The notes under the pieces are model-generated. The model was given only the letters and a program-made list of their open reading frames with translations, made no database searches and had not been told where the DNA came from. Source: Brevundimonas variabilis (GTDB taxonomy: Bacteria > Pseudomonadota > Alphaproteobacteria > Caulobacterales > Caulobacteraceae). Taken from it: a DNA stretch of 64,000 bases. How positions within the stretch are numbered: the first letter of the stretch is position 1; every line of letters starts with the position of its first letter. The stretch covers positions 434,001 through 498,000 of the forward strand of contig NZ_JACHOR010000003.1 of assembly GCF_014199945.1 (NCBI RefSeq), in the 5' to 3' direction. Made by a program: the position numbers and the translations under genes. This document shows, piece by piece, positions 12,873-37,954 of this stretch.

Positions 12873-12893
12873 TCTTGTCTGAGGTCGAGACCC

Positions 12894-17430: not shown

Positions 17431-17447
17431 TTGTCAATAATCTACAT
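17431..17447 (+). promoter_or_regulatory. GntR-type operator, copy B
   Basis: TTGTCAATAATCTACAT, a slightly imperfect copy of the 17-bp palindrome, lies between the two divergent dioxygenase genes, 36 bp before the plus-strand start and 48 bp before the minus-strand start. Confidence 0.7.
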
Positions 17448-17482
17448 GATGGCATAGTGCGGTCGGCCGCAAGGAGGGCTGC

Positions 17483-18352: not shown

Positions 18353-18389
18353 TTCCCACGCTTCTCCCCTGCCCCGCGAGACCTTCTGA

Positions 18390-20183: not shown

Positions 20184-20185
20184 GG

Positions 20186-20971: not shown

Positions 20972-20981
20972 GGAGACCAGG

Positions 20982-22129: not shown

Positions 22130-22136
22130 CAGCCCC

Positions 22137-22811
22137 CTACTCGTCCACCTGCCAGAGATCGGCGTGCAGGGAGGCTCGGTCAGCCGCCTTAACCGAACTC
22201 TGCATGAGCGCTACATGCGCCGTTTCCGCTCTGTCTCCGTCGCGCGCGCGGATCGCCAGAGCGACATCGATCCAATGGCGGGCGACCGCCCGCCTTCGGG
22301 GAGGCGTCAGCACGCCGTGCCGCGCCATTTGAACCAGCCCGCCGCGCATCAGCGGTCTGATCTGTTCTTCCAGGCTGCGGCTCCGCGCCACGGTCAGAAT
22401 ATAGCCGCCCAAACCCCAGGTCAGGCGAGAGAACGCTTCCGGCGTCATGGCCGCGTCCATGGACGCATCTGCGATCTCGCGGGCCAACCGCTCGATCTCA
22501 TCGCGCTCTTCGGGGGTGGCCCGAACCGCCGCGAACCTTGACGCCAGTCCGCTGAGCCGCAAGGCGATGAAGACAAAATCCCCGTCCAGGTCCGCGGGGC
22601 TTTGGGTGACGCGCGCGCCCTTGCCGGGATCGAGCGTCACCCAGTACTCGGCCGCCAGACTGTGCAACGCTTCGCGTATCGGCCCACGGCTGACCTCGTA
22701 TTCGGCGGCCAGCGATTGTTCGCGCAGACGCTCTCCGGGCCGGATTTCTCCCGTCTGAATCTTGCCGACGATATCCATGGCGATGCGCCGGGCGGACGAA
22801 ATCCGGGTCAA
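22137..22811 (-). CDS. GntR-family regulator with FCD domain (second full-length copy)
   Basis: A 224-aa regulator with a winged helix at residues 5-75 (RREQ-type helix pair LREQSLAAEYEVSRGPIREALHSL, wing GKGARVTQ) and an FCD-type helical effector domain. The first usable start is a TTG at 22811; the nearest ATG (22778) would remove part of the first DNA-binding helix. It is divergent from the TonB receptor gene, with operator copy C between them, so it probably controls its own gene and the receptor. It is a candidate repressor of all five operators, alongside the FCD regulator at 14740. Confidence 0.85.
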   Translation of the reverse strand: MTRISSARRIAMDIVGKIQTGEIRPGERLREQSLAAEYEVSRGPIREALHSLAAEYWVTLDPGKGARVTQSPADLDGDFVFIALRLSGLASRFAAVRATPEERDEIERLAREIADASMDAAMTPEAFSRLTWGLGGYILTVARSRSLEEQIRPLMRGGLVQMARHGVLTPPRRRAVARHWIDVALAIRARDGDRAETAHVALMQSSVKAADRASLHADLWQVDE

Positions 22812-22912
22812 GACAGTGGGTCCCAGCTCTCAGGACATCTCATCATCCGCACTGCCTAACCCCTCAGCGGCCATCTGTCGTCCCGCCTGATCGATCATCT
22901 GGAGATCACGAG

Positions 22913-22929
22913 TTGTCGATTATTGACAT
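22913..22929 (+). promoter_or_regulatory. GntR-type operator, copy C
   Basis: TTGTCGATTATTGACAT, identical to copy A, lies between the GntR gene (minus) and the TonB receptor gene (plus). A weaker related sequence, TTGTAAACATTACTGCAA, follows at about 22938. Confidence 0.75.
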
Positions 22930-23021
22930 AACGCGAATTGTAAACATTACTGCAAATCCTCGGACGATCCAACGATCCGTGGGGGAGCGATCGACACAGG
23001 TCGCAAGGGGGAGATCTTCGA

Positions 23022-25181
23022 ATGACTGGATATCGCACAAGGCGAATCTGGCTGGCCGGCGTCGCCGTCGCGAGCCTTTCCTGCGGCTTGTCGCCCGACG
23101 CCGCTCAGGCCCAAAGCGGGCAATCCGCTGCAGAGCCCGCCGCCGACCTTGAGGAAATCATCGTCACGGGGCGAAAGCGCCCGGAGCGGCTGCTGGATGT
23201 TCCGGCCGCGGCCACCACCTTCGACGCCGAACGCCTGGAACGTGAGCACATCGACAATCTGCCCGACCTGTTGCGCAGGACGCCTGGCGCCGTGACCGCC
23301 TATCTGGGCACGACGTTCAGCAGCGAGGTCATCATCCGGGGACAGGGCTCGGGCCGCGTCATCAACTCCGAAGTCGCCTCTGGCCTGTACCGCAATGGAG
23401 CCTACACGATCGGGGGCAACGTCGGCGGTCGCAATTTCAACCGGCTCGACCTGTTCGACGCCGAGCGCATCGAGGTGTTCCGCGGGCCGCAGGGGGGACT
23501 GTTCGGGCGCAACGCAGTCGGCGGCGCCATCAACGTCATCAGCGCGACGCCGACCGATGATCCTGGCGGAAAGCTCACGGCTCGTTATGGACGCTTTGAG
23601 CGATATGAGGTCGAGGGGGTCGTCAATCTTCCCATCAACGAGGCGGTCGGCCTGCGCGTCAGCGGCATCTATATCGACCAGAGCGAGGGCGCCTTCACCA
23701 ACACCTTCGACGGCCGTTTTCAGGATCGCGAAAGCTTCGAGGGTGTCCGGGGTGTTCTGAGCTATCGTCCGGGAACGAATTTCGAGGCCATCCTGACCGC
23801 AGATGTCTTCAGCGAGGACGGACCCAGCTTCGCCGTCGGCAACTACAACCCAGCCGTCACATCCGCCCCCTACGTCGCCAACGACAACCTGGACAGCCGC
23901 TTCGAGCAGAGCCAGTTCTCGACCATCCTGGAGACGAACACAGACCTGTCGTTTGGTCGGTTCAGCACCAATACCTACTACGTCGCGCGCGACGGCTCGA
24001 CGGTCGACGATCTTGACGGCTTCCTGAACATCACGTCTCCCCTGTTCGTAAACTACCGCCGCGACGCGACCGATGACTTCTATCGCTTCGGGCAGTCGGC
24101 CCACCTCGCCTCTTCCGGCGCGGGGCGATTCAGATGGCTGGTCGGCGCGGAATATCTCCGGTCGGTCGACGACTACTATGAACAGAGCCTGGGGCTCCCG
24201 GCGCCTGTTGCGGCGTCGAACAACACCGTGGCTGTGATTTCCGAGGACGATGCCTATGCCGTCTTCGGCAGTGTCGACTATGACCTCTCGTCAGACCTGA
24301 CCCTGTCGGGCGACATCCGCTACAGCATCGACAAAAAGAACGCCGAGCAACGGTCGACGATTTTCTCCGCGACCAACGTCCCGACGATCATCACGGGCGA
24401 TTTCTCCGAGACCTTCGACAATCTGTCGCCGTCCGCCTCCGTGACCTACAAGTTGGCGCCCAGAACGAGCGCCTACGCCCGAGTGGCCACGGCCTACCGC
24501 GCCGGCGGCTTCAACCCGATCCCTGACGGGGTCACGCCGCAGCGCTTCTCGATCTCGTACGAGGCGGAAACCACGGTGTCCTATGAAGCGGGGGTCAAGA
24601 CTGAACTGTTCGATCGCCGTCTGCGGCTGGACCTGACCGCCTACCGCGCCGACACCAACGACATCCTGCTGACCGACCGCGTCCCGGTCGGGGCGACCTT
24701 CATCAACTTCGCCCGGAACGGCGGCGAGGCGGAACAGTTCGGCATCGAACTGGACACCACCCTGGTGCTGAACCTGGGTGATACCGGCGCCACCCTCACC
24801 TTCGACGGCGCCGCCAGTTGGAGCCAGGCCGAGTTCGTAAGCGGTACCCTGAACGGGTTCGAGATTCCCTATGTGCGTCCCTATCAGGCCAGTTTGAGCA
24901 CAACCTATCAGACGCCTGTCGGCTCTGGGGATATGAAGGTCTTTGTGAATCACACCTTCACTGGGGCCTGGCGCGGCTGGCAGGACCAGCCCACGAACCG
25001 AAGGCTCGATGACCTGCATCTGCACAACCTGACCATCGGGGCGGAAACCGCGCGCTTGCGCGTGTCCTTGGATATCCAGAACCTGACCGATGAGTTCTAC
25101 AATCCGCAACGCACCTCGGCGACGGCTATCCGCGCCAGCCGACCACGGACCTGGCTGGTATCGCTGACCGGCAAGTTCTGA
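23022..25181 (+). CDS. TonB-dependent outer-membrane receptor (1)
   Basis: A 719-aa receptor. The signal peptide ends near residue 31 (AAQAQS), the TonB-box-like segment EEIIVTGRKR follows, and then come the plug domain (NLPDLLRRTPGAV, RIEVFRGPQGGLFGRNAVGGAINV) and a beta-barrel closing with the aromatic C-terminus WLVSLTGKF. A GGGGGAG ribosome binding site precedes the ATG. Receptors with the FGRNAVGGAINVIS motif are typical of Caulobacterales and Sphingomonadales and import diverse small molecules. Placed behind operator copy C, it is probably the inducible import route for the island's substrate. Confidence 0.93.
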   Translation: MTGYRTRRIWLAGVAVASLSCGLSPDAAQAQSGQSAAEPAADLEEIIVTGRKRPERLLDVPAAATTFDAERLEREHIDNLPDLLRRTPGAVTAYLGTTFSSEVIIRGQGSGRVINSEVASGLYRNGAYTIGGNVGGRNFNRLDLFDAERIEVFRGPQGGLFGRNAVGGAINVISATPTDDPGGKLTARYGRFERYEVEGVVNLPINEAVGLRVSGIYIDQSEGAFTNTFDGRFQDRESFEGVRGVLSYRPGTNFEAILTADVFSEDGPSFAVGNYNPAVTSAPYVANDNLDSRFEQSQFSTILETNTDLSFGRFSTNTYYVARDGSTVDDLDGFLNITSPLFVNYRRDATDDFYRFGQSAHLASSGAGRFRWLVGAEYLRSVDDYYEQSLGLPAPVAASNNTVAVISEDDAYAVFGSVDYDLSSDLTLSGDIRYSIDKKNAEQRSTIFSATNVPTIITGDFSETFDNLSPSASVTYKLAPRTSAYARVATAYRAGGFNPIPDGVTPQRFSISYEAETTVSYEAGVKTELFDRRLRLDLTAYRADTNDILLTDRVPVGATFINFARNGGEAEQFGIELDTTLVLNLGDTGATLTFDGAASWSQAEFVSGTLNGFEIPYVRPYQASLSTTYQTPVGSGDMKVFVNHTFTGAWRGWQDQPTNRRLDDLHLHNLTIGAETARLRVSLDIQNLTDEFYNPQRTSATAIRASRPRTWLVSLTGKF

Positions 25182-25200
25182 TCCGGCCGCGACCGCTTCG

Positions 25201-26820
25201 TCAGTGGGCGAGGCGGTCGCGATAGCGGTCGCGCAAGGCCATCTTGTTGATCTTGCCGGTGGCCGTCAGGGGCACGGTGTCGAAGACTACCTCATCGGGC
25301 ATCCACCAGCCGACGATCAACGGCCGCAGGTGGTCCCGCACGGCCTGCTCGGTCAGAGCCGCATCCGCATGCGTCTCGATGACCAGGATTGGCCGCTCCT
25401 CCCACTTGGGATGAAACACGCCCACGACTGCGGCGATCCTCACGCCCGGGCACCCGGCGGCCGCGTTCTCGATGTCGATGGAGCTGATCCATTCGCCGCC
25501 TGACTTGATGACGTCCTTGGTCCGGTCGGTGATCCGCATGAAGCCGTCGGCGTCGATCGTGGCGATGTCGCCGGTGTCGAACCATCCGTCCAAATCGACG
25601 GCGCTGGCGTCCGCCCGGTAGTAGCGTTCCAGAACCCACGGCCCCCGGACCTCGAGCGTCCCAGAGGTCTCCCCATCGTGCGGGCACGGTTCGCCGGCCT
25701 CGTCGACGATCCTCATCTCGATGCCGAAGGGCGCGCGGCCCTGGCGCGTCCAGATGACCTCGTCGCAGGAGTCCTGACCCCGCTGCACCAGGCGCGGCGT
25801 CGGCGTCGAGATCGCGCCCAGCGGGCTGGTCTCGGTCATCCCCCAGATCTGGCGCACCGTGACGCCATAGGTCCGCTCGAAGGTCTCCGCCATGACGCGC
25901 GGCACGGCCGACCCGCCGATCACCAGCCGCTTCAGCGACCCCGTGGTTCCGCCCGTGGCTTTCAGATGGGCCAGGTACATGGTCCAGATGGTCGGGACTC
26001 CGCCCGAGAAGGTCACGCCCTCGTCCTGGATCAGCGCATGCAGGCTGGCCCCATCGAACCGATCGCAGGGCAGAACGATCTTGCAGCCATTGATCAGAGC
26101 CACGAACGGCAGGCCCCAGGCCGTGGCGTGATAGAGCGACTGGCACGGCATGATGCAGTCGAAGGCGGTGAAGCCGAGCGCACCGTCCAGACCGGCCGCC
26201 AGGGCGTGGAGAACCACAGAGCGGTGACTGTACAGAACGCCCTTGGGGTCGCCCGTCGTGCCCGAGGTGTAGCAGAGGAAGGCCCCCGCATTCTCGTCGA
26301 AGCGCGGCCATACGATGCCCGGATCGGACTCCTCCAACAGAGTTTCATAGCTTTCGGCACCGACGTCGCCCGCCGATGTCCGTTCCGCGTCCGCCAGCAT
26401 GACAAACCGCTCGATCGTTGGCAGCCGCTCGCGCAGACGATCCACCAGCGCCGCGAATGACCGGTCATAGAGCAGCACCCGACTGCCCGCATGGGTGATC
26501 GTGAAGGCCAGCTGGTCGTCCGACAGTCGAGGGTTGGCCGTGTGCAGGACCGCTCCCAGGCCGGGCACGGCGAAGAACAGTTCCAGGTGTCGATGGGTGT
26601 TCCAGGCCAGCGACGTGACCCGGTCTCCCGGTGCGACGCCCAGAGCGGTCAACGCATTCGCCGCCTTTGCTGCGCGGCTCGCCAGGCCCCCGTGATCGTA
26701 GCGCCAGACCGGCTCCTCGACCAGGCGCGACACGATTTCCCGGTCGGCATGACCCCGCGCCGCGTGAACCAGGATGTCGCTGATCATCAGCGGGGTCTGC
26801 TGCATCAGGCCCGCAAGCAT
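25201..26820 (-). CDS. AMP-forming acyl-CoA ligase (medium-chain/DmdB-like)
   Basis: A 539-aa adenylate-forming enzyme starting at an ATG at 26820 with AGGGAGAGG upstream. The loop [11 protein letters not shown] is at residues 184-194. [46 protein letters not shown] and the C-terminal [14 protein letters not shown] are all present. The last motifs place it in the medium-chain fatty acid / methylmercaptopropionate CoA ligase branch. It is followed in the other direction by the M28-like and receptor genes, which are read before it from the same strand. Probably it activates an acid released by one of the cluster's hydrolases. Confidence 0.9.
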
Positions 26821-26834
26821 CGGCCTCTCCCTGG

Positions 26835-28076
26835 CTAGTCGGCGCGTGACAGGGCCGACCGGATCAGTTGCAGCATCCTGTCGGCCAGGTCGACGCTGAG
26901 GTCCGGCGAAACGCACGAAAGGTCGTCGGCCTCGGTGTGGTGGAACCGGTGCGCGCCGAAGACGCCGACCACCGGCCCGTAACCCGCCGCGGCGATATCG
27001 CCCAGTTCGCCACCCGCGCCCTGGTAGACGTCATGGGGGACCTCCAGACCCGGAGACCCGGCGAACGCGGCCCGGGCGGCCGGAAGCAGGGACGCAGACA
27101 CGGCCAGAAAGCGTTGCGGGTCGGCGCTTGGGAGAGGGGTCAGACCACCGGGAACCTCACGCCAGTCCCGGGTCGCGGCATTGGCTCCGATGTGCACCCA
27201 CAGCGCCGCTCGATCGACCGGCGTGGGCTCCCCTGAAAGATGCACACCCATCCCGGCATAGCCCAGTTCATGGGCCGTGGTGCTGATGGCCAGTATGTCC
27301 ACACCCGCAACGCTGCGCGCCACCTCTTCGACGAGCAGCAGCCACGCAGCCAGGCCGGACCCTCGCTCTCCAGCGCAGATCGACCACCCCGAGCGGGGGG
27401 TGGACAGGATCAGGGTCCGGCCCGCGCCGCGGTCCAGGCGGCCCACGACATTGAAGACCTCTCGTGGCGCGTCGTCGCGCACGACGTGAAACGTCGCCTC
27501 GGCGCCATCCTTCGTCGGCAGGCTCACCGCCTCGCGCGGCGAAAGAACCGCGACCGGAACCGTGAAATCGTCGCCGACAAGGCCGGTGTTCAGCGGAACC
27601 GCAAGGCCGCTGGGGCCGTGGGTCACCAGAACCACAGCCTCAGCCCCTCGATCGGCTGCGGATCGCACACAGTCCTGAATGCGGCTGTCCCGGGCCGATG
27701 ACCAGCGAGCGTGGGGCAGGTCGAGCACCGCGATTGCACCCGCCGACCCCGGGGCCATCGCCTCGGCCGCCTGCCGCACCATCGGGCCGACGACCTTTCC
27801 TGCCGGTGAGGCCGGATGGCCGACTAGAGGGACCGCGCCACCGGCCCAGGCGAGCGAGGCGGTGCTCTCCTGCGACCAGGTGGTCGTGAAAGTCTCCCTC
27901 GCCACGCGAAAGCCCAGCCGCGACAGATCCTCCTCGATCCATGCACCGACCGCCGCGTCGCCCGAGCCGCCCGTCCGCTTGTCGCCGAGGCGGCAGAAGC
28001 GCAGCAGCGCTTCCTCCGCCCGACCGAAGGCACCGACGGTTCCGGTCCGGGCAGGCGCAGGCGTATGGCCGCTCAT
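26835..28076 (-). CDS. M28 peptidase-like protein with degenerate metal site
   Basis: A 413-aa cytoplasmic protein with the overall M28 aminopeptidase fold pattern, including a long nucleating segment before a C-terminal HHTEADDLSCV. Where M28 enzymes carry the first zinc His and the bridging Asp (HxD...DDGSG), residues 226-240 read TPRSGWSICAGERGS, so both ligands are replaced. TTAHELGYAGMG follows in place of the catalytic Glu-Glu motif, with one Glu. It may be a non-peptidase member or use different ligands. An ATG at 28076 is preferred over a TTG at 28094. It lies between the receptor and ligase genes on the same strand. Confidence 0.72.
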   Translation of the reverse strand: MSGHTPAPARTGTVGAFGRAEEALLRFCRLGDKRTGGSGDAAVGAWIEEDLSRLGFRVARETFTTTWSQESTASLAWAGGAVPLVGHPASPAGKVVGPMVRQAAEAMAPGSAGAIAVLDLPHARWSSARDSRIQDCVRSAADRGAEAVVLVTHGPSGLAVPLNTGLVGDDFTVPVAVLSPREAVSLPTKDGAEATFHVVRDDAPREVFNVVGRLDRGAGRTLILSTPRSGWSICAGERGSGLAAWLLLVEEVARSVAGVDILAISTTAHELGYAGMGVHLSGEPTPVDRAALWVHIGANAATRDWREVPGGLTPLPSADPQRFLAVSASLLPAARAAFAGSPGLEVPHDVYQGAGGELGDIAAAGYGPVVGVFGAHRFHHTEADDLSCVSPDLSVDLADRMLQLIRSALSRAD

Positions 28077-28110
28077 TACGCCGGGCCGGGCCAAAGGCCG
28101 TCGAGCGACG

Positions 28111-30348
28111 TCACCACCGATATCGGACCTGGAAGCCGTAGTTGCGAGGCTGGTTCAGACGCTGGGTCGTCGGGGAGGCGAAGATGGTGAACTTGCTGTC
28201 GGTGACGTTCGTGCCGAACACCGCATACTCGATGTCCCCCACCTGAAGCGCGACCCGTGCGTTCAGGATGTCGATGTCCGGCAGCGCGTAGTTCGGCGTG
28301 ACCGACCCGGGCCGCACCAGTTCCTGGAGACCACCCGTCTGGCCGTTGTAGTTCAGGTTGACGCGCAGCTGACTGTCGCCCGCCAGCGGCCGGGTCCAGT
28401 TGAGGTCCGCGCCATAGATCCAGTCCGGCACCTGCGCCAGCGGCTGGCCGTTATAGACGCCCGCCGTGATCTCGCCGTCCTGTGCCGAGACGTTGACGCC
28501 CAGACGCAGGGTGCCGCCCGCGAAGTCGAACCGGCTGTTGGTCTCCAGCTCGACACCGGTGCTTTCCGCCTCGCCCGCATTGGTCAGGAACGACACCGCG
28601 TTCAGCGAGCACACCGCCAGGCCGATGAAGCAGCCGTTGTCGGTCTGGACGATCAGGTTCTCGGTCTGGTTCCGGTAGGCCGCCAGACCGAAGGTGACGT
28701 TGGGCCCCAGACTCCCCTTCAGACCCAGCTCGATCGCGTCCGAGGTCTCGTCTTCGTATGAGGGAACGACCTGGATCGGCTGTTGCGGTACGCCGAGGTT
28801 GGCGTTGAAGCCACCGGACCGGTAGCTGGAGCCGATCTTGGCATAGGCCAGAAGTCCGTCGGTCACGTCGTATGACGCGATCAGGTTGTAGGAGACGTTG
28901 TCCGGTGACGTCTCCGCGTCAAACGAGAACTGGTTCCCCCCGATCGCCACGCCACTGCGGGCGTCGAAGCGGCGGGCCTCGATGGACTTCTCATCCGATG
29001 TGTAGCGACCCTCGGCTGAGAGGTTGAACGCCTCGGTCAGGTCGTAGCCGACCGATCCATAGACAGCCCACGACCTGTATTCGAGTTGGACCGGAGAGCG
29101 CGTTCCCTGAGATGCATTGGCCGGCGTCGGGGTGCGCAGGGTGGTGTTATAGCTGCTACTGTCCAGCTTGTAGAGTTCGGCGCCCAGCAGCCAGGTCAGA
29201 CGGTCTTCGGCGCCCGATCCCGCCAGATGCACATCCTGGTTGAAGATGGTGCTGTTGTCGCCGACCAGGGCATCGGACCCGGCGTCGATCGGAATGGTCA
29301 CCAGACCCGCTGCCCGATCGGCGGCCAGGGTCGCTACGTTGGTGCCGTCTGCATCGAACTGGTAGAATGAAATCCGTTCACGCCAGGCCGTCGTGGACGA
29401 CAGGGTCGCCCAGCCGAGCTCGCGCTTGTAGCGCAGGGTCGCGGCGTTGAAAGTCAGCGTCGCTGAGGGCGGCAGGCCCCAGGGGTATTCGTACTCGGGG
29501 TGGGCGACGCCGCGCGGGAACGAGGGCTGTGGCGCGATCACGACGCGATAGGTGATGGCGGGAATGTCGCCTTCGAGACGTTCCGCCAGGAAGGTGAGGT
29601 CGTTCGTGTCGTCGCGGTAGCGGAACTGTCCCCGCACGCCGATCGAGTTCTGGCGGTCGAAATAGACGTCGTTCTGGGGATTGTAGAAGAAGCCGCCCTG
29701 CTGGTCGATGTAGTCCACGCCGGCCCGCACGGCGATGTTGTCATTGACCACGAAGTTGGCCACGGCCTGGAGCTGCGGGCTCTCGTTTTCAGCCCCATAC
29801 TTGAAGTCGATGAAACCGGTGTCCGCGAACACGGGCTCCTGGGCGATGATGTTGATGGCTCCGCCCACGGCGTTCCGACCGTAGAGCGCGCCCTGAGTAC
29901 CCCGCAGGATCTCGACCCGGCCGATATCGAACAGATCGTTGCGGTTGTAGCTGCGACCACCAACGGCCCCGCCCCCGATGTAGGCTCCGTCACGATACAG
30001 GCCGACGCTGGGGTCAGCGCTGGTGGCTCGCGCCGTCGGCGAGGCGCGGATGGAAATTTCCGAGTTCACCGGCGAAGAGGTGTTGAAGAAGCGAACGCCC
30101 GCCTGGCCTGACAGAAGCTCAAGCGCCGACGACACGCCGCCGCGATCCGACAGTATCTGGTCGGTCAGGACCGATGCAGCCACCGGCACATCGGACAGCC
30201 GTTCCTCCCGACGTCGGGCGGTCACCACGACATCATCGACGGCGGTCGACTGGCCAGGCTGCGGCGCCGCCGCGCTCTGGGCCTCCGCCACGACGGGCAT
30301 CGCGGACAACAAGGCCGCAGCGCAGACGCCCTTCATTTGGTGACGCAT
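28111..30348 (-). CDS. TonB-dependent outer-membrane receptor (2)
   Basis: A 745-aa receptor starting at an ATG at 30348 with GGAGG 6 nt upstream. A signal peptide (residues 1-23, ending VVAEAQS) is followed by the TonB-box-like VDDVVVTARRR, a plug with RVEILRGTQGALYGRNAVGGAIN, and a barrel ending in YGFQVRYRW. It is the first gene of a minus-strand set (receptor, M28-like protein, ligase) and is divergent from the MFS gene. Operator copies D and E lie upstream. It is a second inducible import receptor; the two receptors may take different conjugates or forms of the same substrate class. Confidence 0.93.
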   Translation of the reverse strand: MRHQMKGVCAAALLSAMPVVAEAQSAAAPQPGQSTAVDDVVVTARRREERLSDVPVAASVLTDQILSDRGGVSSALELLSGQAGVRFFNTSSPVNSEISIRASPTARATSADPSVGLYRDGAYIGGGAVGGRSYNRNDLFDIGRVEILRGTQGALYGRNAVGGAINIIAQEPVFADTGFIDFKYGAENESPQLQAVANFVVNDNIAVRAGVDYIDQQGGFFYNPQNDVYFDRQNSIGVRGQFRYRDDTNDLTFLAERLEGDIPAITYRVVIAPQPSFPRGVAHPEYEYPWGLPPSATLTFNAATLRYKRELGWATLSSTTAWRERISFYQFDADGTNVATLAADRAAGLVTIPIDAGSDALVGDNSTIFNQDVHLAGSGAEDRLTWLLGAELYKLDSSSYNTTLRTPTPANASQGTRSPVQLEYRSWAVYGSVGYDLTEAFNLSAEGRYTSDEKSIEARRFDARSGVAIGGNQFSFDAETSPDNVSYNLIASYDVTDGLLAYAKIGSSYRSGGFNANLGVPQQPIQVVPSYEDETSDAIELGLKGSLGPNVTFGLAAYRNQTENLIVQTDNGCFIGLAVCSLNAVSFLTNAGEAESTGVELETNSRFDFAGGTLRLGVNVSAQDGEITAGVYNGQPLAQVPDWIYGADLNWTRPLAGDSQLRVNLNYNGQTGGLQELVRPGSVTPNYALPDIDILNARVALQVGDIEYAVFGTNVTDSKFTIFASPTTQRLNQPRNYGFQVRYRW

Positions 30349-30397
30349 TTCATCCTCCCCTGAGCACGCGAACCGCGCTTCATATGGCGCAGATGCT

Positions 30398-30414
30398 TTG
30401 TCGATTATCGACAA
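30398..30414. promoter_or_regulatory. GntR-type operator, copy D (perfect palindrome)
   Basis: TTGTCGATTATCGACAA is two perfect 8-bp arms around a single T. It is the best copy of the motif and lies 50 bp upstream of the second TonB receptor gene. Confidence 0.8.
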
Positions 30415-30438
30415 CTGTCAAGATCGCCGGGATCACAC

Positions 30439-30455
30439 TTGTAAATAATCTACAA
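30439..30455. promoter_or_regulatory. GntR-type operator, copy E
   Basis: TTGTAAATAATCTACAA has one mismatch between its 8-bp arms. Its centre is 41 bp from that of copy D (about four helical turns), in the same divergent region, upstream of the MFS gene. Confidence 0.7.
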
Positions 30456-30561
30456 CTGAGATCATCCTGTCGCCAACGATGACACCCGGGCATGGTCTGG
30501 GGCGAGGGAGTTCACCGATGACGCAGCCAGGTTCGCATCCGACATCGGAGACCCCGCGGTC

Positions 30562-31827
30562 ATGAGCGAGACGAACGAACGGCCGGGCAGCGCGGCGTCC
30601 GTCGTCTGGTTCCTGTTCCTCATGTTCCTGGTTTCGACCCTGAACATGGCCGACCGCCAGATCATCGGCATCGTCGCCGAGCCGATCAAGCGTGAGTTCG
30701 GCCTGTCCGACACTCTGATCGGCCTTTTGGGCGGAACGGCTTTCGCCCTGGTCTATCCGCCTCTGGGCCTGCCGATCGCGCGTCTGGCGGACCGATTCAA
30801 CCGGCGCAACATTCTGGCTGCATGCCTCGCCTTCTGGAGCGGCATGACCATGCTCTGCGGGCTGGTAACCGGCTTCTGGTGGCTGGCCCTCGCCCGCGCG
30901 GGGGTCGCCGCCGGCGAGGCCGGCTATGCCCCCACGACCCACTCCATGATCGCCGACCGGGTGTCGGAAAAGCGTCGGGCCTCGGCCTTCGCGGTGCTGG
31001 TCACGGGCATTTCGGCCGGGGCCCTGCTGGCGACGGTCGCCGGTGGCTATGTGTCCGAGCACTACGGCTGGCGCATGGCCTTCGTGGCGCTGGGCGTGCC
31101 GGGCTTACTGGTCGCGGTGCTGGTGATGCTGACCGTGCCCGAGCCGCCTCGGCGGGTGGCGGTCAAGACCGGCAGCGCCTGGGCGACCTATCGGCGCCTC
31201 TTGTCCAGCAAGCCGTTCACCTGGTGCGTCGGAGCGTCTGCCCTGCATCTGATGGTGACCTATGCGGTCGGGGCCTGGGGCATCGCCTGGTTCATCCGCT
31301 TTCATGAGATGGGTCTGGCGAGGGCCGGTCTGGTGCTGGGCGGCCTGGCGGCCATCGCCGGTGTTCTGGGCAGCATCGGCGGCGGCCTGATCGGGGATCG
31401 ACTGGCCCGGGTCGACCGGCGGTGGCTGGCCTGGTGGCCGGCGGTGACGGTCTTCGTCGCGGCGTTCGTCGGAGCCGGAGCCTTCCTGACCGGGGACCTC
31501 AACTGGGCCATCGCGGGTGCAACCCTCGCGGTCTTCCTGAACGCCCTCTACCAGCCGTCCAGCTATGCCCTGATCCAGAGCGTCGCCGATCCTGCGGAGC
31601 GCGCCAGCGCGGCCGCCTTGATGATCTTCATCCAGAACCTGATCGGCCTGGGCCTAGGCCCCCTGCTGGTCGGGATCATAAGCGACGCCCTTACGCCGAC
31701 GCTCGGGATCCGGTCGCTCGGCGTCGCCCTGGCGGGTATCTTCATGGTCAACGTCCTGGCCGCCGGGGCCTACTGGGTGGCCGGCCGTCACTACGGCCGC
31801 GCCCCGGCCGATCCTGTGGGAGTGTGA
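30562..31827 (+). CDS. MFS transporter
   Basis: A 421-aa major facilitator with about 12 hydrophobic segments. Characteristic pieces are STLNMADRQIIGIVAEPIKREFGLSDT in the first segments, LGLPIARLADRFNRRNIL (the MFS A-loop) and GGGLIGDRLARVDRR in the second half. This is the spinster-like/hexuronate-type branch often found with TonB receptors. It should move the compound or a hydrolysis product across the inner membrane. It is transcribed away from the second receptor gene, shares operators D and E, and is followed after 4 bp by the carboxylesterase gene. Confidence 0.9.
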   Translation: MSETNERPGSAASVVWFLFLMFLVSTLNMADRQIIGIVAEPIKREFGLSDTLIGLLGGTAFALVYPPLGLPIARLADRFNRRNILAACLAFWSGMTMLCGLVTGFWWLALARAGVAAGEAGYAPTTHSMIADRVSEKRRASAFAVLVTGISAGALLATVAGGYVSEHYGWRMAFVALGVPGLLVAVLVMLTVPEPPRRVAVKTGSAWATYRRLLSSKPFTWCVGASALHLMVTYAVGAWGIAWFIRFHEMGLARAGLVLGGLAAIAGVLGSIGGGLIGDRLARVDRRWLAWWPAVTVFVAAFVGAGAFLTGDLNWAIAGATLAVFLNALYQPSSYALIQSVADPAERASAAALMIFIQNLIGLGLGPLLVGIISDALTPTLGIRSLGVALAGIFMVNVLAAGAYWVAGRHYGRAPADPVGV

Positions 31828-31831
31828 TGCG

Positions 31832-33361
31832 ATGCGCGCCTTGATCCTGTCCGCCGTCGCGGCCCTGAGCCTCGTCACTACGCCCGCATTCTCCCAAGAG
31901 GATCGACCCAGAGCCGAGGTCGCCCAGGGGTTCGCCCTCGGCGAGCGCATCGGAAGCATCGAAGTCTTCCGGGGACTGCCATTTGCCGCCGACACGGGCG
32001 GGAACAATCGCTGGAGAGCTCCCGAGCCCGCCCTGCCCTGGCAGGGGGACCGGGACGCCTCGGCGTTCGGCCCGATCTGCACCCAGCGCGTCGGTGTGTC
32101 CTCTCCGGCCCTGCGTGCGCGCGCGCAGAGCGAGGACTGCCTCAGCCTGAACATCTGGAAACCCGCCGACGCTGACGGCGCGCCGGTCATGGTCTGGATC
32201 CACGGCGGCGCGAACAGCTTCGGATCGGGATCGGACGTCTACTACGACGGCACGCCGTTCGCGCGTCGGGGCGTGGTCCTGGTGACAATCAACTACCGCG
32301 TCGGCCATCTGGGCTTCTTCGCTCATCCAGCCCTGGCCGAGAGCGGCGGCAATCTCGTCAACTATGGCCTGCTGGACCAGATCGCCGCGCTTCGCTGGGT
32401 CCAGCAGAACATCGGCGCGTTCGGGGGTGATCCTACCGACGTCACCGTCTTCGGCGAAAGTGCGGGCGGGGCGGCGGTTCTGAACCTGCTCGCCTCCCCC
32501 GACGCGCGCGGTCTGTTCGCCAAGGCAGCCGTCCAGTCCGGCGGCGGCCTGCGGCTGCCCCGGGACGTCGCCGCAGTGACCCGCGAGGGCCGCGCCACCG
32601 TTCAGGCCCTGGACCTGACCGGAGACGCCGCGACCGCCGAGGCCCTGCGCGCTCTTCCCGCCGACCGGTTCACGCAGGACGGCGTCCGCCCCGCCGTTCC
32701 AGGATTCGGTCCGGCCGTCGGGGGCGCCGCCCTGCCCGAAGCGCCGCTCGTCGCCATCCGTGGCGGGCGGGCGGCGGCGGTGCCGCTGATCATCGGCGTC
32801 AACAGCAACGAAGCCAGCCTGATGCAGTCCTACGGGATGCAGCCAGACGCGGTCATCACACAGTTCGGGGGTCGGCTCCCCGCCCTGCTCGACGCCTATG
32901 GCCCGGCGATCAACGGGGACGACGCCCTGTATGCACGCAGGCTCTATGGCGACGTGGTCTTCGCCTATCCTGCCCGAGCCGTCGCCATCGCCCACAGCCG
33001 CCGGGCGCCGGTGTGGCTCTACTGGTTCGACTATGTCGCCGAAGGTCGACGGGGCGAGGTCACTGGCGTCGCCCACGCCGCCGAGATTCCCTATGTCTTC
33101 GACACCTCGCGCGAGGCCGCGGGATTGCCGCCCGTGTCGGCGGCGGACCAGGTCTATGCGTCCGGCGTCAACGCCTGTTTCACCAGCCTGGCCCTGACCG
33201 GACGCCCAACGGACGCCCCGCTGTGCGCAGGCTGGACGCCCTATGATCGCGATCGAGACAACTGGTTCGTCTTCGCGCCCACGCCGACGGAAATCGAGGG
33301 ACGGGACCGACGCCCGCTGGACGCCATCGGCGCCGCCCTGTGTCGGCTGAATCTCGACTGA
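31832..33361 (+). CDS. Type B carboxylesterase, exported
   Basis: A 509-aa carboxylesterase/para-nitrobenzyl-esterase type enzyme. The signal peptide is about residues 1-21 (TTPAFSQ). The family motifs are EDCLSLNIWKP, the oxyanion HGGANSFGSG and GESAGG with nucleophile Ser210. The Glu is in INSNEAS-like VNSNEASL and the His in GVAHAAEIPYVF. Four bases separate it from the MFS gene, so transport and periplasmic ester cleavage are co-expressed. The product is followed by a Tat-exported M28-family protein. It probably releases an acid or alcohol from an ester taken up by the receptor. Confidence 0.9.
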   Translation: MRALILSAVAALSLVTTPAFSQEDRPRAEVAQGFALGERIGSIEVFRGLPFAADTGGNNRWRAPEPALPWQGDRDASAFGPICTQRVGVSSPALRARAQSEDCLSLNIWKPADADGAPVMVWIHGGANSFGSGSDVYYDGTPFARRGVVLVTINYRVGHLGFFAHPALAESGGNLVNYGLLDQIAALRWVQQNIGAFGGDPTDVTVFGESAGGAAVLNLLASPDARGLFAKAAVQSGGGLRLPRDVAAVTREGRATVQALDLTGDAATAEALRALPADRFTQDGVRPAVPGFGPAVGGAALPEAPLVAIRGGRAAAVPLIIGVNSNEASLMQSYGMQPDAVITQFGGRLPALLDAYGPAINGDDALYARRLYGDVVFAYPARAVAIAHSRRAPVWLYWFDYVAEGRRGEVTGVAHAAEIPYVFDTSREAAGLPPVSAADQVYASGVNACFTSLALTGRPTDAPLCAGWTPYDRDRDNWFVFAPTPTEIEGRDRRPLDAIGAALCRLNLD

Positions 33362-33366
33362 TCGCG

Positions 33367-34797
33367 ATGAACCGGCAATCCAGACGCCAGTTCGCGGCGT
33401 CCCTGACAGCCGTCTCCCTGTTTCCCGCCCGCATCGTGCAAGACGTTACCGGCCCGCTTTCTCCTGCGTCGCTGATGGCCGATCTGACCGCGGTGACAGC
33501 GGTGTCGCGCCGGGCGAAGGCGGATGGATTGCTGGACTACGGCCGGGTTCCCGGAACGATCTACGATGGACTGACCGCTTCCTGGCTGGAGCGACGCTTT
33601 CGCGAGGCCGGACTCTCCCAGGTCAGGCAGGATCCGTACGACTTGCCTGACCCGGAATGGATGCTGGACGGCGTTTCTCTGGACATCGACACCGGGCGGG
33701 GGACGGTGTCGATGCCTTCGGCCTTCACGCCCGATCAGTCCCCGGTGACGCCGCCGGAAGGCACGACTGCAGAGATCATCGACATCGGCGACGGCTCCGC
33801 TGCGGCGCGGGCTAGACGAGACCTTAGCGGCAAGATCGTTCTCGTCCACAGCCGGGTCGAAGGCATCGCCTACGATCATCCCGCCCGCGCTCTTGTGCCG
33901 GACCTCGAACGGGAGGGAATCGCTGGCCTGATCCTAGCCATTCGCCAGCCCGGAGATCCACAGACGCGCTATGCGGTCCAGCCCGGCCCGATCCGGTTCC
34001 GGGTCACAAGGACCCCTTGGATCACCATCTCCGGGGCCGACGCACTCACCCTGAGCACGCTGATCGATCAGGCGCCTGGGAAGGCATGTTTGAAAGCCAC
34101 GATCAGGGTTGAGGGGCGCCTCACGCCGCCCGGCCGGTCGCAGAACATCATGGGCGTCGTGCCCGGCAGATCCGACGAGGTGACGCTGGTCACAGCCCAC
34201 ACCGACAGCCGTTGGGAGGGCGCGACCGACAATGCCAGCGGCGTGAGCCTGCTCCTCGGTCTGGCCCGACATTTCGCCTCACGCCCCCTTCCGGAGCGGA
34301 CCCTGGTCTTCGTCGCCACCGGCGGTCATCACAACGGTCCGTCCAGTGGTCAGAAGCATATCATCGCGGCCCACCCGGACCTGATCGGCCGCTGCGCGCT
34401 GATCGTGAACCTGGAACACGTCGGATCGCGCGAGCCCGACGGTCGCGGGGGTCTGCAAGAGCGGGCCGGTCCCAATGTAATGTTCGTCCCGAACCAGAAC
34501 CCGGACTTATTGCGTCTGGTCGAGGCCGGCGTCGCGGCTCACGGCGTACCGGTCCTGCGACCGGTCCAGACCTTCTGGACGGCCGACTATTACGTTCACG
34601 CTCGACTGGGGACACCGGCGGTCATGATCCTGCAGCCCTCGTTCTGGTACCACACCGAGGCCGACACCATGGACAAGGTCCATCCGGAGGATCTCTCGGC
34701 GATGGCCAGACTCCATGCCGACCTCATCTCCGGCGCTGATGCGGTGTCGCGGGCAGACCTTCGGATTGGAGTACCATCGCTGAGCTTTGGAACCTGA
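33367..34797 (+). CDS. M28-family metallopeptidase-like protein, Tat-exported
   Basis: A 476-aa protein with an N-terminal Tat motif (SRRQFAASLTAVSLF, residues 5-19). The first zinc ligand region is conserved (AHTDS at 277-281, GATDNASG at 285-292). The normal catalytic Glu-Glu pair is replaced: ATGGHHNGPSSG stands where M28 enzymes have AEExGLLGS. The C-terminal His is present (FWYHTEADTMD). The metal chemistry is therefore changed, with His in place of Glu, or the protein is not a peptidase. An ATG at 33367 is chosen over a GTG at 33340 because it places the twin arginines near the N-terminus. It is the last gene of the MFS-esterase-M28 operon. Confidence 0.78.
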   Translation: MNRQSRRQFAASLTAVSLFPARIVQDVTGPLSPASLMADLTAVTAVSRRAKADGLLDYGRVPGTIYDGLTASWLERRFREAGLSQVRQDPYDLPDPEWMLDGVSLDIDTGRGTVSMPSAFTPDQSPVTPPEGTTAEIIDIGDGSAAARARRDLSGKIVLVHSRVEGIAYDHPARALVPDLEREGIAGLILAIRQPGDPQTRYAVQPGPIRFRVTRTPWITISGADALTLSTLIDQAPGKACLKATIRVEGRLTPPGRSQNIMGVVPGRSDEVTLVTAHTDSRWEGATDNASGVSLLLGLARHFASRPLPERTLVFVATGGHHNGPSSGQKHIIAAHPDLIGRCALIVNLEHVGSREPDGRGGLQERAGPNVMFVPNQNPDLLRLVEAGVAAHGVPVLRPVQTFWTADYYVHARLGTPAVMILQPSFWYHTEADTMDKVHPEDLSAMARLHADLISGADAVSRADLRIGVPSLSFGT

Positions 34798-35296
34798 GCG
34801 TACCTGTCCGTTTGGAACGGTGCTACCGAGGCTTTGTCGCCCTAGGACTTGCGTTCGACGTTCTAGTGATCAGCCACTCCGAACGTGTCCATGAACGAAC
34901 GCATCGCTGGCGCTAACCAACGCGATAGTAAGTAGGCAAGCCCAAAGGAGGGTGGCGAGGGGGGTGACGTGATGGTGTGGACGACCTCCACCTGAACAGC
35001 TGTTCTGGAGTGTCTTCATCAGGGACCTCATGTGTGGACGACCTCCAAGACGCAAGAGTGGAAACGACGTTGGCGCTCGGTCGAGTGCAGTCATGTGTTC
35101 GGCCTGTTGATGCAGCTGTGTGCGCTGCTGGCCTTGATGAAGTCTGCGGACCGGCTCCCGAAGCACCCCCACGCGCTCAAAGCGCTCTGACCCCTAGGTT
35201 TCTCCGTCCTCGGCTGCGGCCGGTTCGTCAACACGTCTCATCACTCTTGGTCAACGGCGTCGGTCCTTGGTGGAGACCGGGCCGATCTCTATGCCG
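34798..35296. other. 499-bp region without a recognisable gene
   Basis: No convincing ORF. A 15-bp direct repeat, TGTGGACGACCTCCA, occurs at about 34976 and again at about 35033. A plus-strand frame ending at 35187 encodes a short hydrophobic segment (VFGLLMQLCALLALM) and no start is evident. Composition is less GC-rich than in the neighbouring genes. The stretch lies between the catabolic island and an IS110-like relic and may be decayed mobile DNA. Confidence 0.5.
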
Positions 35297-35467
35297 TCAG
35301 GGCCCGTAATCCTCCTGTCGCGCCATCAGGGTCCAAGCGATGCGGGCGGTCTTGTTGGCCAAGGCCACGGCGGCGACCTTCGGCTTCTTGCGTCCGAGCA
35401 GATTGCCGATCCAGCCCTCGCGTCCTCGCTGGCGGGCCATCCGCAGAACGGCGGGCTCGTCAAAGAC
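35297..35467 (-). pseudogene. C-terminal relic of an IS110-like transposase
   Basis: A 56-residue frame ends at a TGA at 35297-35299. It contains GWIGNLLGRKKPKVAAVALANKTARIAWTLMAR, which matches the conserved ending of IS110/IS1111-type transposases (KVAAVALANKTARIAWALM). The upstream catalytic DEDD and serine domains are absent and no terminal repeats are evident. This is a decayed insertion sequence next to the tRNA-Leu gene. Family assignment is from memory of the pattern. Confidence 0.6.
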
Positions 35468-35612
35468 AAGCGACCGGCGACTTTCGGGAGAGCGTCTGCC
35501 GATGTCATCTGGGGATGCTTCAGACTGAAAGCGGGCTTCCCGGCAGGTCGGCTCGTAGAGTTGGTGCGGGCGGCCGGGGTCGAACCGGCATGGGCAATGC
35601 CCGACGGATTTT

Positions 35613-35826
35613 CATACCACTTCGACTTTCGCCGCCACCCAGGTTGGGCGTTCGTGGTCTGGACTATCCCTTCGTCATAGCCCGAAGGCCTTAGACGCCG
35701 CCCGTCTAGTCTCTACACCTTCCCGCCTGGCGGCGGGCTTGGCTCGGGATCGCCATTCTACAGGGTTCCCCGACTTTGAGCGGTTCTACGTCCGGGATTT
35801 CCCCCGGCGCACTCAATCCTCAGCTT
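35613..35826 (-). ncRNA. Group I self-splicing intron in tRNA-Leu(UAA), 214 nt
   Basis: The intron starts directly after the exon's terminal U and ends in G, as group I introns do. The conserved core elements are readable in order on the minus strand. A P2-like hairpin (CCGGG..CCCGG) follows the internal guide region. The P4-P6 segment contains GGCGATCCCGAGCCAAGCC. R/P7 5' strand: AGAGACTAGACGGG. P8 hairpin: GCC-TTCG-GGC. S/P7 3' strand: GGGATAGTCCAGACCA, whose TAGTC pairs with GACTA of R. GAGT in the guide region can pair with ACTT at the exon end, giving the usual U-G at the splice site. The sequence closely resembles the IC3 introns of cyanobacterial and plastid trnL(UAA). There is no homing endonuclease ORF. 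Confidence 0.9.
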
Positions 35827-35857
35827 AAGTCCGTTGCGTCTACCAGTTTCGCCACGC
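35825..35857. repeat. Attachment-type direct repeat, tRNA-side copy (33 bp)
   Basis: These 33 bp, within tRNA-Leu exon 1 and the first two intron bases, recur exactly at 37840-37872. Beyond them, one mismatch is followed by three more matching bases on the tRNA 5' side. Together the copies flank the integrase module and are the likely att core. Confidence 0.8.
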
Positions 35858-35941
35858 CCGCATGCTGCGCGAGTCTATAACAGCCTACGCGACGCGGCCA
35901 AGGGACGCTGTCATTTCAACAGGTAAGGCCAGACGCGATTC

Positions 35942-36490
35942 ATGAAGCCATTGAACGAGAAGATGGCGGCCAAAAAAATCGCAAAGGGTCCAACCACCCC
36001 GGCTGTACCGCACTCGGCTGAAGTCCGACGAGTCCTCGGCAGGCTGCCGAATCCGCAGGACGCCTTATTTCTCGACTTCGCCGATGTCGGGGCCGGGTAC
36101 CATGGTGCCGCTTGTCATATGAACGCCAAGCACCTAGCGATGTCCCCCGGGGGAAGGCGGGTACACGGATGGGCCATCTGGCAATACCCAAGCTTTGCTC
36201 AAGCAGAGTTTCATAGCGTTTGGGAGGACCTGGACGGCAATCTGGTCGATGTCACGCCGCATCGGAATGGCCAGACAAAGGTGATGTTTGTGCGGGATCC
36301 AAGCCTCGTTATCGAGCGGGACCCAGAAACTGGTCGAGCAATCCTCTTTTCCGCGATCACCTCGTCGGGCGCGCCGTACTACAAGATGGCTGAGACACCG
36401 ACGACGTCGCCGGTCTACACTTTCCAGGTCAAAACTGGTTCGGAGCTCGATGAGGAGCTAATCCGCTTGGGACTGCTCGATCTGGTCTAG
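35942..36490 (+). CDS. Hypothetical protein with Cys-His-Asp pattern, cargo of integrase module
   Basis: A 182-aa protein with a basic N-terminus (residues 1-20) and a core of conserved-looking blocks: CHMNAKHL (Cys59), GGRRVHGWAIWQ, AEFHSVWEDLDG (His91) and NLVDVTPH (Asp103). The order Cys, His, Asp is that of papain-like or NlpC/P60-like folds, and GW.IW...EFH.VW...DVTP recurs in uncharacterised bacterial proteins, some with SEC-C zinc motifs. A catalytic role is speculative. The gene converges on the integrase gene with a 3-bp gap and is the only cargo of the 2-kb element. Confidence 0.6.
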   Translation: MKPLNEKMAAKKIAKGPTTPAVPHSAEVRRVLGRLPNPQDALFLDFADVGAGYHGAACHMNAKHLAMSPGGRRVHGWAIWQYPSFAQAEFHSVWEDLDGNLVDVTPHRNGQTKVMFVRDPSLVIERDPETGRAILFSAITSSGAPYYKMAETPTTSPVYTFQVKTGSELDEELIRLGLLDLV

Positions 36491-36493
36491 CGG

Positions 36494-37729
36494 TTAGTCT
36501 GACGTCTTCTTCGGTTTCTGTTTCCGGACGTTGATCGCCGAGGCGTCAAGCGTGTTCTTGATGTGGGAGGCATAGTATTTCTCAATCATCTCGACGCTGG
36601 TCCGGCAGTTTTTCGCCACCTGATAGATGTCGGCTCCCTCCATCAATCGCATACTGATGTAGGTATGGCGCAGGCTATAAGCGGTCCGCGGATTACCCTC
36701 TCGGTCCTTCTTGAGCCCCAGTTCGTCCAAGATCGCGTTCATCAGCTCTCGCTGTACCGGCCCGAAAATCAGGTCCGTCGGCTTCGGATTCGCTCGCGCC
36801 CGAAGGCGTTCGAACGGCAAGACGGCTCCTGCCATGCTCTTGCAGTAGCCAACGCCGCGCTTGCCCCGGACCTCGATCTCAAGGATCCGCTCATTCATGT
36901 CCTCGTCCTCGACGACGGTGACGTCGCGAAACTCCAGGCGCGAGGCCTCGTCGGGTCGCAGGCCGGTGTTGGCCATGAAGAGCACGTAGTCGTGGAACTT
37001 CTCGCTCTCGCCCCTCCATCGCTCCTTCTTCGGCTTCTTGGCGCGCGCGCGCGTCGCCTCGTAGAGCGTCCGGTACTCATCCGGGGAAAACCAGGCGCGG
37101 TGGCTGATCTTGCCGGAGGTCTTGTAGGGTGCCGACATGTCGGGAAGGCCGGTGATCCAGCCCTTGCGGTTCGCGGTTTTCAGCACCTGGCGCAGCGTGA
37201 CGATCTCGCTGTGCATCGTGCTCCGCGAAGGCCGCTTCACGTTGCCCTCTCCGTCTGACCGGGAGGTCATCCGGTGAACCCGGTAGTCCTGGATCAGGCC
37301 GGCGGTGACCTCGGTCACAGGCTTGTCTCCGAAGTACGGCAGCAAGTGCAGGTTCAGTTGCCGGGGTTTCTGCTTCACATAGGAGGCGTTCCGTTCGCCC
37401 AGTGTAATGACCTCGTATTCCGCAACGAACGCCTTGGCGGCGTCGCGGAAGGTGGGAGCTGTCGCCCCTCGCCTTTTCGCGCCAGACCCAGTGAAACGAG
37501 CCACGGATCCGGCAGTCGGGAACTCTTCGCGGAGGCGGAGGCGCGCGTCGACCCGGCGCTCCAAGTACCAGTCGGTGGCAAACTCGAACGCCATCGCCAA
37601 GTTGGTGTGCCCGGTGGTTGACCGATAATTGTAGCCGTCCAGGTAGACGGCGCACTGCCAGCGAGAGCTGTTCTCCCGACGGTAGACATGGACCTTGCCG
37701 TCCATAAGCGTGTGTTTCTGTTCCGCCAT
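36494..37729 (-). CDS. Tyrosine-type site-specific recombinase (integrase)
   Basis: A 411-aa phage-type integrase. It has an N-terminal arm-binding region with an AP2-like start (YRRENSSRWQCAVYLDG), a SAM-like core-binding domain (about 95-190) and a catalytic domain. Catalytic residues: Arg258 in NTGLRPDEASRL, Arg354 in YSLRHTYISM (Tyr351 replaces the usual first His of the box), and the nucleophile Tyr385 or Tyr386 in MIEKYYAS. The ATG at 37729 is preferred over longer frames that run into the duplicated tRNA segment. It lies between two 33-bp att repeats and should catalyse integration into tRNA-Leu(UAA). Confidence 0.92.
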   Translation of the reverse strand: MAEQKHTLMDGKVHVYRRENSSRWQCAVYLDGYNYRSTTGHTNLAMAFEFATDWYLERRVDARLRLREEFPTAGSVARFTGSGAKRRGATAPTFRDAAKAFVAEYEVITLGERNASYVKQKPRQLNLHLLPYFGDKPVTEVTAGLIQDYRVHRMTSRSDGEGNVKRPSRSTMHSEIVTLRQVLKTANRKGWITGLPDMSAPYKTSGKISHRAWFSPDEYRTLYEATRARAKKPKKERWRGESEKFHDYVLFMANTGLRPDEASRLEFRDVTVVEDEDMNERILEIEVRGKRGVGYCKSMAGAVLPFERLRARANPKPTDLIFGPVQRELMNAILDELGLKKDREGNPRTAYSLRHTYISMRLMEGADIYQVAKNCRTSVEMIEKYYASHIKNTLDASAINVRKQKPKKTSD

Positions 37730-37839
37730 GTCTGCACTTCCCGAAGTGGGGTGTGTAAGACATGTGTAACTCGGTCGGCGGGCCCTAAGTAGCGGTTTTT
37801 GCAACGTAAACATACGGTGGTAGGCCGTAAAACACGCTT

Positions 37840-37872
37840 TTAAGTCCGTTGCGTCTACCAGTTTCGCCACGC
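37840..37872. repeat. Attachment-type direct repeat, distal copy (33 bp)
   Basis: Exact 33-bp copy of the tRNA-Leu exon 1 segment at 35825-35857. On the minus strand this copy continues past the exon end as CTTAAAA, the sequence of an uninterrupted tRNA-Leu(UAA) loop, before diverging. It does not continue into the group I intron. On the tRNA 5' side it reads GCGAGCG instead of GCGGGCG, which would break one acceptor pair, so this copy is not a working tRNA end. Confidence 0.78.
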
Positions 37873-37954
37873 TCGCCTGCCAGGACGCCTAGCAGCGACG
37901 CGACGACTCATAAAGGTGCCTCGTGACTCTGACGGTCGCTCCGGTGGCCGCGAC

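Follow-up and report, generated by a model that had tools for sequence, protein, structure and literature searches.

An intron-bearing tRNA-Leu(UAA) gene lies inside an integrative element that splits the native gene in Brevundimonas variabilis

A tRNA-Leu(UAA) gene with a group I intron beside an integrase gene

The window analysed here is a stretch of 64,000 nucleotides of the Brevundimonas variabilis genome (contig C3, 434,001-498,000). It contains, on the minus strand, a tRNA-Leu(UAA) gene interrupted in its anticodon loop, a tyrosine recombinase gene and an incomplete second copy of the tRNA gene (Table 1). From the letters alone, the initial annotation had read a tRNA-Leu(UAA) with a 214-nt intron between U34 and A35, and ARAGORN with introns allowed returned the same coordinates (35562-35861, minus; 86 nt spliced, intron at position 35/36). 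The group I covariance model RF00028 matched 35651-35836 (minus) over its full length (positions 1-253) with 37.4 bits and E 5.5e-8; with the E limit set at 0.001, the 3.4-Mb genome gave no other match. The best relatives in the family reach up to 54.2 bits. Since the Rfam gathering score is 50 and the window intron falls under it, a default Rfam scan is silent on this intron; the default ARAGORN run did not report the tRNA in the window either, in line with the earlier warning that gene finders may miss it.

We aligned 26 introns, the window's among them, and obtained a consensus fold of 62 predicted pairs, 20 of which show double changes in at least one sequence. The U-G pair at the 5' splice site (P1; columns 8/25) is present in 26 of 26 sequences, and the terminal intron base, read as G by the initial annotation, is G in 30 of 30 loci. 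The P7 pair GACTA/TAGTC of the window intron is a by-eye reading, pseudoknots being beyond the fold-prediction tool, and the intron may belong to subgroup IC3 of tRNA introns. Its insertion site agrees with that of the cyanobacterial and plastid trnL(UAA) introns, to which the initial annotation likened it in sequence as well. A TATA-like stretch was also read by eye 5' of many related loci.

The intron-bearing gene is the only intact tRNA-Leu(UAA) found in the genome: no second intact intronless copy turned up, and the sole other copy found is split. In ORFs chosen by a simple rule, UUA codons number 3 in 6,609 codons on the chromosome side of the window and 10 in 10,195 codons on the element side. 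UUA is thus rare yet used, and the host likely needs a functional tRNA-Leu(UAA).

Table 1. Features of the locus, in window coordinates
Feature	Position	Strand	Remarks
Element part inside the window	1..37841	.	Element = C3 386,579-471,838, about 85.3 kb
Replacement tRNA-Leu(UAA) 3' exon, CCA encoded	35562..35612	-	ARAGORN with introns
Group I intron, 214 nt	35613..35826	-	AAGC start, TATG end; splits CTT^AAAA
Replacement tRNA-Leu(UAA) 5' exon	35827..35861	-	35 nt, to U34; ARAGORN with introns
Promoter-like TTGGCC-16-TATAGA 5' of replacement tRNA	35874..35901	-	By-eye reading only
182-aa ORF between integrase and replacement tRNA	35942..36490	+	ORF listing
Tyrosine recombinase (integrase), 411 aa from ATG	36494..37729	-	Pfam, relatives
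att core ACTTAAAA; GACTTAAAA common to attL and attR of the window element	37838..37845	-	
Native (host) tRNA-Leu(UAA) 5' half (attL)	37842..37876	-	Acceptor strand GCGAGCG; 5'-exon repeat

The integrase scored just below the Pfam cut-offs for both PF00589 (E 6e-4) and PF14659 (E 1.4e-4) and had no match in an NCBIfam scan, and its relatives were found with E down to 8e-191. Its open frame extends back to a GTG at 37870, inside the native tRNA half; as the frame is open through 37730-37870, an annotated integrase start could include translated tRNA (MAKLVDATDLK). The 182-aa ORF gave no Pfam match. Integrase and tRNA are usually separated by 85-151 bp; the window has 636 bp between them, and at six other loci the distance is 1.1-4.2 kb.

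In a class-wide sample, integrase relatives (E up to 1e-60) occurred in 14 of 385 genomes. Among the 15 loci besides the window's, three have an intron-bearing tRNA-Leu(UAA) and one has a split UAA half with no replacement gene within the stretch covered, while the neighbours of the others are tRNA-Met (6), tRNA-Leu(UAG) (1), tRNA-Arg (1) or no tRNA (3). A search of 50,697 phage records (E limit 1e-10) gave no integrase match, and neither did six peptide patterns of the integrase in viral_contigs. Eight plasmid records hold relatives, the best of which, on a Rhizobium plasmid, has no tRNA within 3 kb on either side. In L369, L370-L373 and L422 we observed two related integrases, in tandem or one at each element end, an arrangement suggesting that insertions have piled up at one tRNA. 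The short stretches searched directly 5' of the second integrase contained no CTTAAA-like site.

An element in the anticodon loop of the native gene

The 5' exon occurs a second time as a 41-nt copy 2,015 bp upstream of the replacement gene, with the integrase in between, and this upstream copy runs on into CTTAAAA, the anticodon loop of an intronless gene. The native 3' half lies outside the window, at C3:386,579, 85.3 kb from the 5' half. Its acceptor strand, CGCTCGC, fits that of the 5' half, so that the native halves pair at 7/7 positions of the acceptor stem and 5/5 of the anticodon stem. The flanks of the element (upstream from about 38350 of the window, downstream 0.7-3.3 kb past the 3' half) bracket an intact gene in relatives: in seven of them (L359-L362, L365-L367) an intact intronless tRNA-Leu(UAA) lies between those flanks, with the downstream flank 0.3-6 kb from it. 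As far as comparison of genomes goes, these results show that an element inserted in the anticodon loop of the native gene and stranded its two halves, and that the intron-bearing replacement lies inside the element. The initial annotation was right about intron, gene and site and missed the context, the gene being cargo of an integrative element and not the host's own. Its remark that the locus bears on whether such introns are inherited or transferred is borne out.

Two other models of the locus were rejected. An integrase cassette of about 2 kb that had entered a resident intron-bearing gene at its 5' exon was ruled out by the intronless upstream junction and by the distant native 3' half. 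An attP made of half a tRNA plus the intron, re-using the chromosomal 3' half, does not agree with the stems, as the intron-joined 3' half pairs properly with the 5' half of the replacement and, wherever the two sets of stems differ, not with that of the native gene.

The 85-kb element carries, by Pfam and NCBIfam matches in its stretch L390, a type IV secretion set (VirB4 family, PF07996, TrbL/VirB6, VirB8, CagX, TrbI and T2SSE), in which some proteins are presumably VirB5/9/10/11, and a VirD4-like coupling protein (T4SS-DNA_transf). These genes lie 15-27 kb from the element end bearing the native 3' half. Judging from this gene content the element is probably conjugative. The scan, which covered a part of the element's proteins, gave no relaxase, and metabolic genes make up most of the other cargo scanned (esterase, peptidases, acyl-CoA and AMP-binding enzymes). 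A second element with a known empty site is the 12-kb one of G155, where the native 3' half lies 12 kb downstream, a complete intron-bearing tRNA stands between the halves, and in G162 and G234 the two flanks join up around an intronless gene that is intact. This element (L352, 3560-15457) also holds an AbiEi-like regulator, a SMODS nucleotidyltransferase fragment, a TonB receptor and a FecCD transporter.

In the family sample, 16 elements combine a split 5' half, the integrase and an intron-bearing gene. Both native halves were found in 13 of them, 7-90 kb in size (G000, G028, G074, G087, G109, G116, G155, G163, G169, G183, G200, G209 and G222), and in the three without a 3' half (G078, G147, G104) the contig end comes first. 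Matched halves pair at 153 of 156 stem positions (the acceptor of G074 entered as 7/7 from a by-eye reading, the automatic parse giving 4/7), against a mean of 136.8 when halves were shuffled among genomes, and 0 of 100,000 shuffles reached 153. In each of the 13 attL/attR pairs 9 to 23 nt are common, and all 13 share ACTTAAAA, which is the 7-nt anticodon loop plus one base. According to a review, the anticodon loop, usually 7 bp, corresponds to the overlap region of tyrosine recombinases (PMC8371274). The intron lies inside this att core (CTT^AAAA). Moreover, in most genus relatives with this arrangement the upstream split copy has the stems GCAGA and AAGGGA, as in the intronless tRNA genes of the genus, and the adjoining intron-bearing gene reads ACGGA..TCCGT, unlike the split copy.

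Distribution of the intron and its link to the integrase

RF00028 matched in 47 of 249 genomes of the family sample, from 8 of 22 genera, and all 47 matches lie within a tRNA-Leu(UAA)-like gene, five of them labelled tRNA-Phe by ARAGORN. These five labels (L445-L447, L449, L450, in same-family genomes) come with a shifted intron, and the printed sequences of L445 and L449 resemble tRNA-Leu(UAA) despite the label. The AAGGTGYAGAGACTAGACGG pattern, with at least 120 matches in named genomes, found tRNA-Leu(UAA) introns in many Alphaproteobacteria, in Acidobacteria and in a Bacteroidia MAG. Taken together, these matches indicate that the alphaproteobacterial trnL intron is not rare. For three of the 46 named loci (L114, L117, L122) the intron call is doubtful, the junction there differing from CTT/AAAA. 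Among the matches listed, the pattern also finds introns of other tRNAs: by ARAGORN label, introns with the same core lie in tRNA-Leu(CAA) (L072, L100, L146, L242), tRNA-Thr (L038, L081, L085) and tRNA-Arg(CCU) (L039, L047), their hosts being other bacteria and one viral contig.

We then compared intron-bearing and intronless genes for a nearby integrase. It lies within 6 kb upstream on the same strand at 17 of 47 intron-bearing genes (G042 being a remnant and G183 counted from a longer stretch of its locus) and at 0 of 43 intact intronless ones (Fisher p 3.4e-6), for loci that are not random and whose flanks are about 1.5 kb or less at 33 of the 43 intronless and 30 of the intron-bearing loci. 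The control set is made of 45 loci minus the split halves L316 and L317; 28 of the 43 come from the first 30 pattern loci, 10 were hand-picked among the matches of that pattern and 5 come from a pattern fixing CTTAAAA. At the named tRNA-Leu(UAA) intron loci, tblastn found an integrase nearby in 10 of 46, three of these being fragments, and a stricter profile search (ORFs of at least 120 codons) placed one near 7 and left 39 without. Six of the integrase-linked named loci have a split half too (L034, L107, L099, L101, L070, L115), and they include two Phenylobacterium, a Caulobacterales MAG, Sphingobium cupriresistens and an Acidobacteria MAG. Since no integrase lies in the stretch covered in 30 of the 47 family genomes and 36 of the 46 named loci, the intron also occurs without a visible element.

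Distances between introns and between integrases are correlated (Mantel r 0.72 over 30 loci and 0.61 over 11 genus loci, p 0.0002 each), by a measure that ignores host relatedness and includes near-identical loci. The window is an exception to this trend, as its intron is 4.7% from that of G222, in the same genus, but the closest relative of its integrase, 28.5% away, belongs to another genus. A similar mismatch is presented by G163 and the Phenylobacterium MAG L034. Integrase and tRNA modules seem, from these comparisons, to reassort, which speaks against a single shared history. In G165 and G228 about 80 bp separate the intron-bearing gene from the flank that lies upstream of the usual native site; this may be an element that has lost its integrase. 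G061 has a split half without an integrase, and its start is 76 bp upstream of that of the intron-bearing gene.

On the phage side, at least 120 viral contigs (L154-L273) match the tRNA-intron core pattern. In 48 of those listed there is a tRNA-Leu(UAA) with a group I intron, often of about 198 nt and apparently phage-encoded, and within the stretch covered none of the 48 has this integrase up to 6 kb upstream. An unannotated group I core was also seen in pelagiphage HTVC120P (L291, MH598807.1) and a related marine phage (L294, KT997847.1); both were rejected as tRNA-intron cases, the core sitting between two ORFs called capsid protein. An Erythrobacter phage match covering the first 40 nt of the query only was discarded as well. 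In Gordonia phage Daredevil (L293, about 2380-2690) a tRNA-like gene that lacks annotation contains a group I core, and the integrase gene of the phage is about 0.6 kb away.

Replacement genes, the attachment core and known systems

Of the 30 loci chosen by their intron 0 keep the core, which follows from that choice, and how REPLACEMENTS look was surveyed from integrases and not from introns. In 25 genomes a split UAA half lies 100-370 bp upstream of the integrase. A replacement gene was seen in 23 of them (including G200 and G209, where it is located in a neighbouring stretch), 22 being intron-bearing and one intronless, and G291 and G641 have none within the stretch covered. The intronless replacement (L422, G220) has the loop TTTAAAA and shows that the intron is not obligatory for the replacement of a UAA element; a sequence pattern found no further tRNA-Leu(UAA) in G220. 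With 22 interrupted cores and one altered loop, none of the 23 replacements keeps CTTAAAA, against 43 of 43 intact intronless genes (38 found by a pattern allowing T or C at the first position, 5 by a pattern fixing CTTAAAA). The integrase-linked loci are not random draws and the sets contain near-identical genomes, so these counts are not independent events.

Some integrase relatives target tRNA-Leu(CAA), and there the split halves read CTCAAAA. The complete tRNA-Leu(CAA) beside the integrase reads TTCAAAA in three of five cases and has an altered stem, CGGCA/TGCCG, in two of five. Three tRNA-Leu(CAA) genes 6-9 kb from an integrase read TTCAAAA twice and CTCAAAA once, the latter (L410), putative cargo 7.6 kb away, speaking against the explanation proposed below. 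The CAA and UAG evidence is weaker than that for UAA, as both native halves were not found and there is no control set of ordinary tRNA-Leu(CAA) genes.

We propose that the tyrosine integrase brought the element, about 85 kb long, into CTTAAAA, the anticodon loop of an intronless tRNA-Leu(UAA) gene of the host. As the attP does not rebuild its target, the native gene remains as two halves at the element ends, and the complete tRNA-Leu(UAA) near the integrase would compensate for the destroyed gene. The group I intron breaks this replacement precisely within the att core, between U34 and A35; the attachment site is thus absent from its DNA and the integrase could not cut the needed copy, while transcription and splicing would restore the tRNA. 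We consider this explanation as a whole, in which an element destroys a tRNA gene and supplies a copy with an att-masking intron, to be quite probable. We also lean towards the view that the intron acts as a DNA-level shield, the loop recognised by the integrase existing in the replacement only in RNA after splicing. Splicing itself, the specificity of the integrase, the shielding role and the shield as the reason why the intron is retained are what we infer from these arrangements.

The intron might instead be a passenger: the element would carry a complete tRNA to keep its host alive, and this copy would by chance derive from a gene with an intron that has no role in guarding att. Its presence at loci without integrase, the intronless copy carried by one UAA element (L422) and the partial reassortment of intron and integrase would all agree with this. 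We find it unlikely nonetheless, considering that the core is kept in none of the 23 replacements beside split UAA halves and in all 43 intact native genes, that L422 has a base change in the same core in place of the intron, and that all five CAA copies beside the integrase differ from the split half, in loop or in stem.

A host-owned, vertically inherited intron, next to a small integrase cassette that merely duplicated the 5' exon, is very improbable. Such a history would explain the direct repeat that brackets the integrase and the wide occurrence of introns in the family. It is at odds with the upstream copy, whose intronless junction is native and whose stems differ in most relatives, with the native 3' half that pairs with this copy from the far element end, with the intronless genes at the empty sites and with the 13 elements whose native 3' half stands alone. 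Homing often makes group I introns mobile, and endonuclease-type homing between tRNA genes would suit both this habit and the conserved insertion site; we give it hardly any credence, as 214 nt is too short for a known kind of homing endonuclease gene and the gain of the intron coincides with a complete second tRNA gene while the native exons remain intronless. Just as implausible is a degenerate, unspliced intron in a pseudogene, for which the Rfam score below gathering could be cited, since this is the sole non-split tRNA-Leu(UAA) found in a genome that uses UUA codons and the paired intron positions co-vary across relatives.

Why group I introns of tRNA genes persist and move without homing endonucleases is a long-standing question. 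If the att-masking explanation is true, group I introns in bacterial tRNA genes would be maintained and spread by selection arising from competition with anticodon-loop integrases, and element insertion would be a route to the replacement of whole tRNA genes. In the Caulobacteraceae sample, a number of tRNA-Leu(UAA) genes are element-borne replacements and not the ancestral gene, and such genes can escape a default tRNA finder, as here. With 13 bounded elements, two empty sites, the intron copies and one altered intronless copy, the shield idea is testable.

Several known systems resemble this one in part. Group I introns of tRNA-Leu(UAA) are known from cyanobacteria and plastids (PMC4476775), and this is the gene that the initial annotation had named; gene and intron class are the same, and here the hosts are other bacteria and the intron belongs to an integrase element. 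Genomic islands in tRNA genes (Islander, PMC4383910) share the tyrosine integrase, the anticodon-loop crossover and the split target gene. These islands are described as restoring the disrupted gene with their own sequence and leaving the displaced fragment, whereas the window element leaves the two native halves at its ends and brings a full gene of its own. Tycheposons (PMC10872708) are likewise large elements (4-200 kb) with a tRNA gene at the border and a tyrosine recombinase; the word 'intron' does not occur in that text, and its passages on these elements mention no intron-interrupted att core. The window resembles them by layout. In the open PMC literature, outside of which most subscription papers lie, we found no report of a group I intron that an integrative element carries as cargo in bacteria, or that masks an att site.

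The archaeal tRNA intron of Caldiarchaeum subterraneum is not known to be a group I ribozyme. Among archaeal integrases there are some that use tRNA genes with introns (PMC8371274), and this would count against a shield. A protective role of archaeal tRNA introns against integration was put forward by Randau and Soll, as cited in PMC3293823. The closest precedent is the tRNA-Thr(GGU) of Caldiarchaeum subterraneum (Sugahara et al. 2012, PMC3293823), where the 5' fragment of a tRNA gene and a recombinase gene are likewise found next to a tRNA gene with an intron, and where a mobile element was proposed to bring an intron that may help it by preventing further invasion. In that proposal an attP containing the intron recombines with the gene, whereas here the native gene is left in halves, a complete second gene is carried, the hosts are bacteria and the cases with both ends bounded number 13.
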